From the NCBI RefSeq assembly GCF_036997485.1, contig NZ_JAWLPU010000003.1, positions 310,001 to 374,000 of the forward strand: a stretch of DNA of 64,000 nucleotides, in the 5' to 3' direction. The notes beneath the pieces were generated by a model. It was not told the DNA's origin and did no database searches. It saw only the letters and a program-made list of their open reading frames with translations. The position numbers and the translations under genes were made by a program. Positions 19,121 through 58,465 of this stretch are shown piece by piece (position 1 is the first letter of the stretch; each line of letters starts with the position of its first letter). The stretch comes from Brachyspira pilosicoli (lineage in GTDB: Bacteria > Spirochaetota > Brachyspiria > Brachyspirales > Brachyspiraceae).

Positions 19121-19148
19121 TTGACATAATTTTAAATTATGTTAAACT
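19121..19148 (+). promoter_or_regulatory. Promoter upstream of the heptamer tract
   Basis: TTGACA (19121-19126), 16-bp spacer, TAAACT (19143-19148). If used, the tandem repeat at 19181-19250 lies in the transcribed leader of the 19363 gene. Confidence 0.45.
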
Positions 19149-19180
19149 AGCTACTATGAAAACTAATAGATTAAATTGTT

Positions 19181-19250
19181 GTCTACAGTCTACAGTCTAC
19201 AGTCTACAGTCTACAGTCTACAGTCTACAGTCTACAGTCTACAGTCTACA
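19181..19250. repeat. Ten perfect tandem copies of the heptamer GTCTACA
   Basis: Seventy bases are exactly 10 x GTCTACA, followed at once by GTAGAC, the reverse complement of the GTCTAC in every unit. It lies 112 bp upstream of the 19363 start. Perfect identity implies recent slippage, so copy number is expected to vary between isolates. Confidence 0.95.
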
Positions 19251-19362
19251 GTAGACTCACAAAATTATATTTTACAATTCCCCCCTATTCTTTTGATGTT
19301 GCATCAATTTCTTATTTTGATGATGAAATGATTAAGTTTTTTCTTTTAATAAAGAGGAGAAT

Positions 19363-21909
19363 ATGTTTAAAAAAAATATTGGTATTAAATTATATATTTT
19401 ATTAATTGTTGTTTACACTATTGCTTTTTTTTCTTTATACTATTTGGGCAGTAAAACTAGGAAAGGTTATTTAGAAATATCATTTAATGAAAATTATGTT
19501 AATAAAACTTTAGAATTAAATAATTTAGAATCTATAAAAGAGCAATTTTTTGTAAATAATAAATTAGATATTAATAGTATAAATAATTATATTATTACTA
19601 ATGAAAATATAAAAAAATATTTTTATGATTTTAAACTTCAGTATTATAGTAAAATTTTTATGTATAGTGATATATATTATGTATATGTAGATACTAATAA
19701 ATTTCTTAAAGATAATGATTTTATTAAAGAAATAACAATGCATCAAATTGGAAAGCAATATGGTTCTTTAATATCTTCTTCTAGTTTATATGATAAAAAA
19801 ATTGAATTTGATTATACATTAGGGATAAAAGAAGATTTTATATATGTTCTTTTATCATTATATATTATTCTTATTTTATATTTTGTTTATTATCATATAT
19901 TGAATTTTGATAAATTAAGTTTGTTTATATACTCTAAGTTAGATAATTCACAAAAAGATAAAGTTGATGGTAAAAATATTTCTTTGCTAAATGACTTTTT
20001 TCAGAATTTCATTAAATCATTTATAACGAGTTTGATAATTTTATTGATTTTAATAGTATTAAAATTAGGTATGTTAAAAGTATATTCCTTATTTCTAGTC
20101 TCTTTTGTTATAATATTTTATTTGTATAGTAATAAAAGAATTATTTTTTTAGATAACTTTTTCAATAAATACATTTTTAGTATTAAATATAAAAAATTAG
20201 TATTCTTTTTTATATTAATTTCTATATTAACTTTTTTTATATTATTTAAATTGGTGGAAAATGATTATATATTTAATATTAATAATATATTAAATTTTAT
20301 ATCATTATTTATTATAACTTTTATCATTTTCATTATTTTAAAAAGATTTTCAAATACTTATTTGTTTATATTTTTATCAATTATTTCTTTATTACTAATT
20401 GTATATAAAAAATATGTGCCTGCTATAGAAGATGTTTTTCATCATACATCACATTTTACATCAGTGTTTTTTGTACATAATGGTATTCCTTATCAAGATA
20501 ATATGTATAGTATATTAGGACATTATGCTATATTAATGGAGCCATTTTTTAAAATATTCGGACTTAATGTAAACACATATTCTATTTTACTTGCCATATT
20601 AGCTGGAATATCTATTGTATTTATAATAATTACTATTTTTATACTTATAGAAGATAATTTTTATAGAAATATAGCTATATTATTATTGATATTATTATAT
20701 TTTACTCTTAACAATGAAAGACCTCGTTTTACAGTTTTTAGAATATTATTTCCTTCTATTGTTATGGGATATTTAGCCATTATTAATACAAAAAAGAATA
20801 TAGTTTTTATATCAATTGGTTATTTATTAGCATCTCTTGCAATTTTATTCAATGTTGAGTCCGGACTAGTAACTATTTTTTCATTATCCGTTGCTAATGT
20901 TTATATTTATTGTTATGATTATAATTTTAAAGATAAAAGATTGTATATTAATTTGTTCTTTTTCTTTTTACTTTCTATTTTTTCAATATTATTATCTTTT
21001 GCTATTTTTAATATATATAATGTATATGTTTTGGGAGGTGAAATACAAGATTTTAAATCGCTTTTATTCCCTCTATTTACAGATCAAGTTTCTAATACTG
21101 CTTTATATCAAATTAAGCTCATTGACTTTTTCATTCAAGTCTTTTTAATATTAATATTTTTAATTCCATTTATGTTTTATTTAAATAAAATGTCTATCTT
21201 TAGAGGTTATGAAAATGAAAAAATAAAAAAACATTATGCTTTAGTAATATATATTTGTATATCAGCGTTAGGATTATATTCTTATAACATTAATAGATAT
21301 CATATAACTCATAATGTTATAGTTTTTCCTATGTTAGTAGTAATAATTCCATTTATATTAAATAAACTATTTAGCAATATATATGTATTGGACAATGAGG
21401 AAAAGAAAAAATATATAATTTATATTCAATCATTCATAATTCTTCTGATATTAGTTTTATACACTTGTTCTTTTAATTTCAATATAGTATTTTCTGAGAG
21501 ATCCAAAAAATTATTTTCATATTTAAAAACAAAAAATACAGAAGAAAATGGTATTACATCAAAGGTTACTGAATATATAAAAAAATATGGATACGATGGT
21601 ATAGTATCATTTGGCGGACCGTTTGTATATGGATATGCTAATTTGGGTTGGACAAATTCATTGATTTTACCTAATGAAAGTGATTGGTGGAATCCTCAGT
21701 TGGGTTATACTAAAGTTGTTGAAATGTTTTTAGAAAAATCTCCTGATGTATTTCTATCTGGAAAAGAATTATATAATATATCATATTATTATAATACTAA
21801 TTACATAAATAGTGTAAATTTTTTTAATGATTATGTGTTAAAAAATTATACAAATGTTAAAACAGAATATGAGAAATATAATTTTTACTTTTATCAGAAG
21901 ATAAAATAG
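19363..21909 (+). CDS. Large polytopic membrane protein, probable GT-C-type glycosyltransferase
   Basis: An 848-residue protein with an N-terminal membrane helix, a soluble segment (about 35-155), then a dozen or more helices and a short C-terminal soluble domain. The loop around residues 370-395 (FVHNGIPYQDNMYSILGHY followed by a FKIFG helix) resembles the acceptor/donor loop of GT-C polyprenyl-phosphate-sugar transferases. No closer assignment is possible. Base composition is even more A+T-rich than its neighbours. Start has GAGGAG. The gene, with its heptamer leader, is enclosed by long direct repeats, which suggests acquisition or duplication as a cassette. Confidence 0.7.
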   Translation: MFKKNIGIKLYILLIVVYTIAFFSLYYLGSKTRKGYLEISFNENYVNKTLELNNLESIKEQFFVNNKLDINSINNYIITNENIKKYFYDFKLQYYSKIFMYSDIYYVYVDTNKFLKDNDFIKEITMHQIGKQYGSLISSSSLYDKKIEFDYTLGIKEDFIYVLLSLYIILILYFVYYHILNFDKLSLFIYSKLDNSQKDKVDGKNISLLNDFFQNFIKSFITSLIILLILIVLKLGMLKVYSLFLVSFVIIFYLYSNKRIIFLDNFFNKYIFSIKYKKLVFFFILISILTFFILFKLVENDYIFNINNILNFISLFIITFIIFIILKRFSNTYLFIFLSIISLLLIVYKKYVPAIEDVFHHTSHFTSVFFVHNGIPYQDNMYSILGHYAILMEPFFKIFGLNVNTYSILLAILAGISIVFIIITIFILIEDNFYRNIAILLLILLYFTLNNERPRFTVFRILFPSIVMGYLAIINTKKNIVFISIGYLLASLAILFNVESGLVTIFSLSVANVYIYCYDYNFKDKRLYINLFFFFLLSIFSILLSFAIFNIYNVYVLGGEIQDFKSLLFPLFTDQVSNTALYQIKLIDFFIQVFLILIFLIPFMFYLNKMSIFRGYENEKIKKHYALVIYICISALGLYSYNINRYHITHNVIVFPMLVVIIPFILNKLFSNIYVLDNEEKKKYIIYIQSFIILLILVLYTCSFNFNIVFSERSKKLFSYLKTKNTEENGITSKVTEYIKKYGYDGIVSFGGPFVYGYANLGWTNSLILPNESDWWNPQLGYTKVVEMFLEKSPDVFLSGKELYNISYYYNTNYINSVNFFNDYVLKNYTNVKTEYEKYNFYFYQKIK

Positions 21910-58415: not shown

Positions 58416-58465
58416 AATACATGTATTATATACATGTATTATATACATGTATTACTCATTGTCAA
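58416..58465 (-). promoter_or_regulatory. Operon promoter with three phased TACATGTA operators
   Basis: On the minus strand TTGACA (58465-58460), 16-bp spacer, TATAAT (58443-58438). Three palindromic cores TACATGTA at 58444-58451, 58431-58438 and 58418-58425 are spaced exactly 13 bp and cover the spacer/-10, the start and the early leader. A fourth related half-site, AATACATGTTATT, lies at 58548-58560. This is the layout of a tightly repressed promoter. Confidence 0.8.

Follow-up and report, generated by a model that had tools for sequence, protein, structure and literature searches.

The genes hmw1A and hmw2A of Haemophilus influenzae carry leaders with 7-bp repeats, which exert a graded effect on the transcript level. 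Translational contingency loci are a second type of repeat-bearing system, exemplified by the CAAT repeats of lic1 in Haemophilus and by the lob genes of Histophilus (PMC3339403). Heptamer repeats of the unit TAACTGA are found in Beggiatoaceae, Cyanobacteria, and Bacteroidetes, and a post-transcriptional role has been proposed for them (PMC4679880). Translational coupling has a signature of its own, namely overlapping genes with a co-located stop and start codon (PMC3711429).

The locus discussed here lies in a stretch of 64,000 nucleotides of Brachyspira pilosicoli (contig NZ_JAWLPU010000003.1, positions 310,001 to 374,000), referred to as the window. The host genome comprises 2.72 Mb in 10 contigs. 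An array of perfect GTCTACA units precedes a gene for a membrane protein and extends over 10.3 copies up to position 19252 with a 100% match; nine overlapping dimer matches were counted, compared with 0.01 expected. A preliminary description had reported ten perfect units, the hexamer GTAGAC directly behind them, and a promoter-like pair at 19121-19148. All of these are present as described, the pair consisting of TTGACA and TAAACT. That description did not include an ATG located 7 nt downstream of the -10 box, the frame of which is open into the array. The array probably forms the core, prone to slippage, of a leader for translational phase variation.

Table 1. Features of the array locus (positions within the window; n, number of units)
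Feature	Position	Strand	Basis or comparison
-35 box, TTGACA	19121..19126	+	Sequence; TTGAC lies equally far upstream of other Brachyspira GTCTACA arrays
-10 box, TAAACT, 16-nt spacer to the -35 box	19143..19148	+	Sequence; elsewhere mostly TATAAT, TAAAAT or similar
Start codon ATG of the leader ORF, predicted leaderless, at the predicted transcription start	19156..19158	+	
Leader ORF at n=10, MKTNRLNC plus repeat-encoded run, ending at TAG 19252-19254, predicted OFF	19156..19254	+	
Predicted phase-variable array, 10 x GTCTACA, stop-free in all three frames	19181..19250	+	
Leader 3' of the array, ON frame open to TAA 19403-19405	19251..19405	+	
GTAGAC, 'closing complement', directly 3' of the array, not conserved at other loci	19251..19256	+	2/33 arrays
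TTGCA element, within the TTGATG/CATCAA hairpin at 19293-19307 (loop and 3' arm)	19299..19303	+	
Shine-Dalgarno-like AAGAGGAG of the main gene	19352..19359	+	Sequence
Putatively regulated gene, 848-aa polytopic membrane protein	19363..21909	+	Genus homologues are preceded by arrays of several units

The TTGCA element, often followed by A-runs, is shared by 14 of 20 family leaders (3.1 expected), including loci with different repeat units. A further repeat in the window, on the minus strand at 58417-58454, comprises nearly three copies of a 13-mer with the palindrome ATACATGTAT. It follows TTGACA and lies upstream of a gene, with TATAAT repeated in between, and looks like a tandem operator or a duplicated -10 region.

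In the proposed mechanism, transcription would start at or beside the ATG at 19156, and the leaderless leader ORF would be translated straight through the array. Translation of repeated GTCTACA gives a cyclic VYSLQST run; stops do occur in the reverse complement, and the orientation used is the stop-free one. As the unit length of 7 is not a multiple of three, every addition or removal of a unit moves the exit to another frame. Slipped-strand gain or loss of a single 7-nt unit would in this way alter the frame in which the ribosome leaves the array. Two of the three exit frames end within a few codons at most loci (predicted OFF). The remaining one extends without a stop as far as the next gene's start (predicted ON), and ribosomes that terminate there or pass it may enable translation of this gene by translational coupling. 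At a few loci (L068, L072, L049, and L058), the open frame fuses directly into the gene. The sequences themselves show the layout and its orientation, the lack of stops in the units, the exit frames, the exchange of units, and the different copy numbers among species; from these we infer leaderless initiation, slippage in culture, and an effect on downstream expression.

For the window, ten copies are predicted to read OFF and nine or twelve copies ON, with eleven copies being intermediate. The ON frame crosses the main start at 19363 and overlaps with it by about 43 nt, rather than in the form of ATGA, and the third exit frame (n=11) ends at the stop 19329-19331. This leader is untidier than most, as two of its exit frames run on for some distance (+81 and +155) and the shuffle probability for this leader alone is 0.2. 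Taken alone, it is weaker evidence than the array family as a whole.

Within this family, the order of elements recurs. GTCTACA loci consist of TTGAC(A/T), 15-17 nt, a TATAAT-like box, 6-11 nt, an ATG, 2-13 codons, and the array, followed by a leader of approximately 70-200 nt and a gene with its own start. At all GTCTACA arrays that bear a TTGAC promoter, the distance between the start of TTGAC and the ATG is 34-38 nt. An ATG that follows the -10 box at a distance of 4-11 nt and has a frame open into the array was found in 12 of 18 families, compared with 2.0 expected from shuffled spacers (P=3e-9). With the opposite strand as a control, the pattern of promoter, ATG, and open frame was counted at 52 arrays in the sense and 3 in the antisense direction. 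Some array loci contain an ATG led by a Shine-Dalgarno sequence in place of the leaderless ATG. This applies to many loci with CGCAY or CCGTCAA units, so leaderless initiation appears typical of the GTCTACA class and not of all arrays. In some species, the same gene directly follows its upstream neighbour and the leader is absent, which suggests that the leader is gained or lost as a block.

Behind the arrays, two of the frames usually encounter a stop within about 15 nt and the third stays open. With one representative per downstream protein family (20 families, clustered on the downstream protein), 16 of 20 families have an exit frame that extends to the main start (-20 nt), and 4 families fail. 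Dinucleotide shuffles, which keep the base-composition structure of the leaders only partly, gave an expectation of 4.5 (P=6e-11). Exactly one open exit frame, with the others closed by +17, was observed in 9 of 20 families (0.9 expected, P=4e-9). The prediction that an exit frame extends to the main start held in 15 of 18 CGCAY and CCGTCAA loci that were fetched later and include two CCGTCAA glycosyltransferase loci seen earlier (4.1 expected); the associated P=9e-12 overstates independence because homologous loci are among the 18. Nearly all loci of this later set have an ATG that is open into the array. The peptides encoded by the leaders show no codon-position bias in four ortholog groups. 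Thus, the passage of the ribosome, or the openness of the frame, seems to be selected rather than the peptide, and a functional leader peptide was rejected on this basis.

Leader stop and main start frequently overlap as ATGA or TAATG, and for this reason coupling is favoured as the link between leader and gene. A compatible sub-version of the frame switch, which is considered possible rather than probable, assigns the switch to transcription: a ribosome in the open frame would prevent the formation of a terminator hairpin in the leader. Hairpins with a T-run are present in several leaders, e.g., at the glycosyltransferase loci and at L059, L065, and L056, and the stem GTTATA/TATAAC of lipoprotein leaders becomes ATTATA/TATAAT in L049. 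Such a phase-variable attenuator would also account for the ON frames of L037 and L039, which end well 3' of the main start. However, it does not appear to be general, as many leader hairpins are no better than those of shuffled sequences (mean z -0.8) and the hairpin in the window is weak (-3.5 kcal/mol, p 0.44). The restriction of terminator hairpins to some loci also counts against the frame-switch reading itself. The same is true of the main genes usually carrying their own Shine-Dalgarno sequence and of the result that general masking of this sequence was not found in the leaders (pairing of 0.67 versus 0.64 in shuffles, p=0.06).

The number of units differs between near-identical loci of different species, each represented by one assembly. 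One pair contains 9 (ON) and 11 (OFF) units with flanks that are 97.9% identical, and a second pair contains 5 (ON) and 10 (OFF) units with flanks that are 98.2% identical, the states being predicted. Another two orthologous loci, with 94.4% identity in the flanks, contain 10 and 14 units. Approximately 6 of 32 GTCTACA loci are predicted to read ON. Several contigs end inside arrays, so copy counts may be wrong. Given these differences, the phase-variable leader repeat suggested in the preliminary description probably stands. The mechanism suggested there, in which copy number determines the choice of hairpin or the length of the leader, is not supported.

That mechanism belongs to a wider explanation, according to which the repeat number in the leader alters the level, stability, or structure of the transcript and the frame is irrelevant. 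Such graded control is unlikely here. It is consistent with the location of the array within the transcribed leader, as in hmw, and in the window GTAGAC is able to form a hairpin. However, GTAGAC occurs within 40 nt downstream of only 2 of 33 distinct Brachyspira GTCTACA arrays and is missing from the other 31, so it is not regarded as part of the system. The proposed shift between hairpins is not borne out either: from n=10 to n=13, GTAGAC would just pair with the second-last unit. The hairpin switch was therefore rejected, the complement being unconserved and the pairing unchanged in kind. Graded control also predicts neither a leaderless ATG nor stop-free units, an open exit frame, or a preference for unit lengths that are not multiples of three, all of which are seen.

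The unit sequence itself is replaceable. Related loci keep the layout with the units AAAC, AACAAGC, CAGCAAA, CCGTCAA, CGCAT, CGCAC, and ACACT. In one glycosyltransferase-like family, CCGTCAA and GTCTACA occupy the equivalent position, as do CGCAT and GTCTACA in one lipoprotein family. Relatives of the window gene are preceded by AAAC (up to 42 copies), AACAAGC, CAGCAAA, AAACAAC, ACACT, or GTCTACA. Two loci of a single genome, L139 and L194, contain AAAC and AACAAGC arrays, respectively, between flanks that are 82% identical. The examined units measure 4, 5, or 7 nt and lack stops; what is retained is the absence of stops and a length that is not divisible by three. Pattern searches detected CARCAAR arrays in 14 genomes, AAAC in 14, CGCAY in 21, and CCGTCAA in 2. 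In the host genome, a paralogue of the window gene (L278, G000:C3, minus strand, upstream of a 1116-aa ORF) has only two AACAAGC units after the ATG and then a stop, apparently a decayed array. One genome (G007) yielded zero matches to all five repeat patterns searched, yet it contains homologues of the window gene.

A reading of GTCTACA as the site of an RNA- or DNA-binding regulator, or as the footprint of a mobile element that spread in the genus, is very improbable. It would explain why one heptamer is found at many unrelated genes, why the complete leader upstream of a given gene can be there or missing, and why similar arrays exist in other phyla. A sequence-specific site does not predict, however, that homologous genes bear quite different units at the equivalent position, and this exchange makes it unlikely as the main function; for a mobile element, no conserved element ends were seen.

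GTCTACA arrays were detected in 16 of 26 Brachyspira genomes, always in one orientation, and in 0 of 16 genomes sampled outside the genus. The host genome contains exactly three long perfect arrays and zero degenerate ones. A neutral leader microsatellite without function would agree with the unconserved leader peptide, but it is hardly credible in view of the position, orientation, and frame statistics and of these three perfect arrays without degenerate counterparts. A collection-wide scan also identified GTCTACA arrays in bacteria that are not related to Brachyspira. Prominent among these are Histophilus somni and some Bacteroidetes, and the context there is mostly a different one. In Histophilus somni DSM 23850 (L077, L106, L107, L117, L125, and L129), GTCTACA is arrayed straight after ATG or ATGACA at several contig ends, and other contigs begin with a GTCTACA array, which is followed by very long open reading frames. 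These arrays likely represent a phase-variable family with the identical unit in an unrelated bacterium. The arrays of Bacteroidetes (L078, L080, L089, L094, L113, and L116) are intergenic and mixed with degenerate GACTGCC- and GTCTAAA-type heptamers; they are another kind of dispersed heptamer repeat.

Regarding the gene downstream of the array in the window, the preliminary description had named a putative surface-glycan enzyme, which is an unproven guess. The protein has no match in Pfam or NCBIfam, and no solved structural relative was found. An AlphaFold2 model calculated from 3 sequences reached a pLDDT of 41, and a fold search was ruled out because the model is too poor. Several sister loci do encode glycosyltransferases. 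In the collection of array loci, the downstream genes encode glycosyltransferases (MGDG-synthase-like and family 11), FkbM and other methyltransferases, radical-SAM proteins, lipoproteins, an outer-membrane barrel, and zinc-ribbon proteins. On inspection of their sequences, some of the downstream proteins resemble membrane-bound O-acyltransferases.

Extended to the genus, the frame-switch reading describes a portable leader that consists of a promoter, a leaderless start, an interchangeable stop-free repeat, and a single open exit frame with coupling to a separate gene downstream. It is rather likely that such leaders form a genus-wide phase-variation system of Brachyspira, which uses lineage-specific repeat words and switches many surface-related genes, including those for glycosyltransferases, lipoproteins, membrane-bound O-acyltransferase-like proteins, and outer-membrane proteins.

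The genus Brachyspira includes the agents of swine dysentery and human colonic spirochaetosis. If the proposed system is correct, this genus of intestinal spirochaetes possesses unrecognised repeat-driven on/off switches for surface structures, with consequences for tandem-repeat typing, immune variation, and the differences among isolates of one strain. Placing the switch in a short leader ORF before an intact gene lets one design serve many genes. It also makes the link between leaderless initiation, the delivery of ribosomes, and expression directly testable with reporters.

In the open literature, no relevant paper on the GTCTACA heptamer was found (12 of its 14 rotations were covered), and papers including genome reports yielded no phase variation in Brachyspira; VNTR typing papers, which possibly contain some of the loci, were outside the scope of this search. 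Among the known systems, translational contingency loci share with Brachyspira stop-free repeats right after the start codon, a frame shifted by slippage, and targets in surface glycans and the envelope. As in these loci, a translatable tandem repeat with a unit that is not a multiple of three lies between a start codon and a coding frame, and between species its copy number varies among near-identical loci. In contrast to them, the Brachyspira array is located in a separate short leader ORF, the open frame of which ends at or overlaps the main start. Furthermore, the start of the GTCTACA leader is predicted to be leaderless, and several interchangeable units occur per gene family.

With hmw1A and hmw2A, the Brachyspira loci have in common a heptamer array between promoter and gene start and copy number as the regulator. 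In hmw, the array lies outside the translated frame, whereas in Brachyspira the frame of an ATG located at the predicted transcription start continues into the arrays, which are predicted to be translated, and frame and stop codons rather than length appear to matter. The TAACTGA repeats resemble the GTCTACA arrays in that one heptamer precedes many genes with a patchy distribution. They contain stops in the forward orientation, whereas GTCTACA is a different, stop-free heptamer that is predicted to be read as protein and is replaced by other units. The signature of translational coupling is reflected in the ATGA or TAATG overlaps and in the open exit frames that reach the start in both sets of loci (16/20 and 15/18); unlike in coupled genes, the upstream ORF in Brachyspira encodes a short unconserved peptide, and its frame is set by a slippage-prone array. 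Repeat-based phase variation itself is already well known. What is new is that it probably occurs, and on a broad scale, in Brachyspira, that a putatively leaderless leader ORF is placed in front of an intact gene, and that the units can be exchanged.
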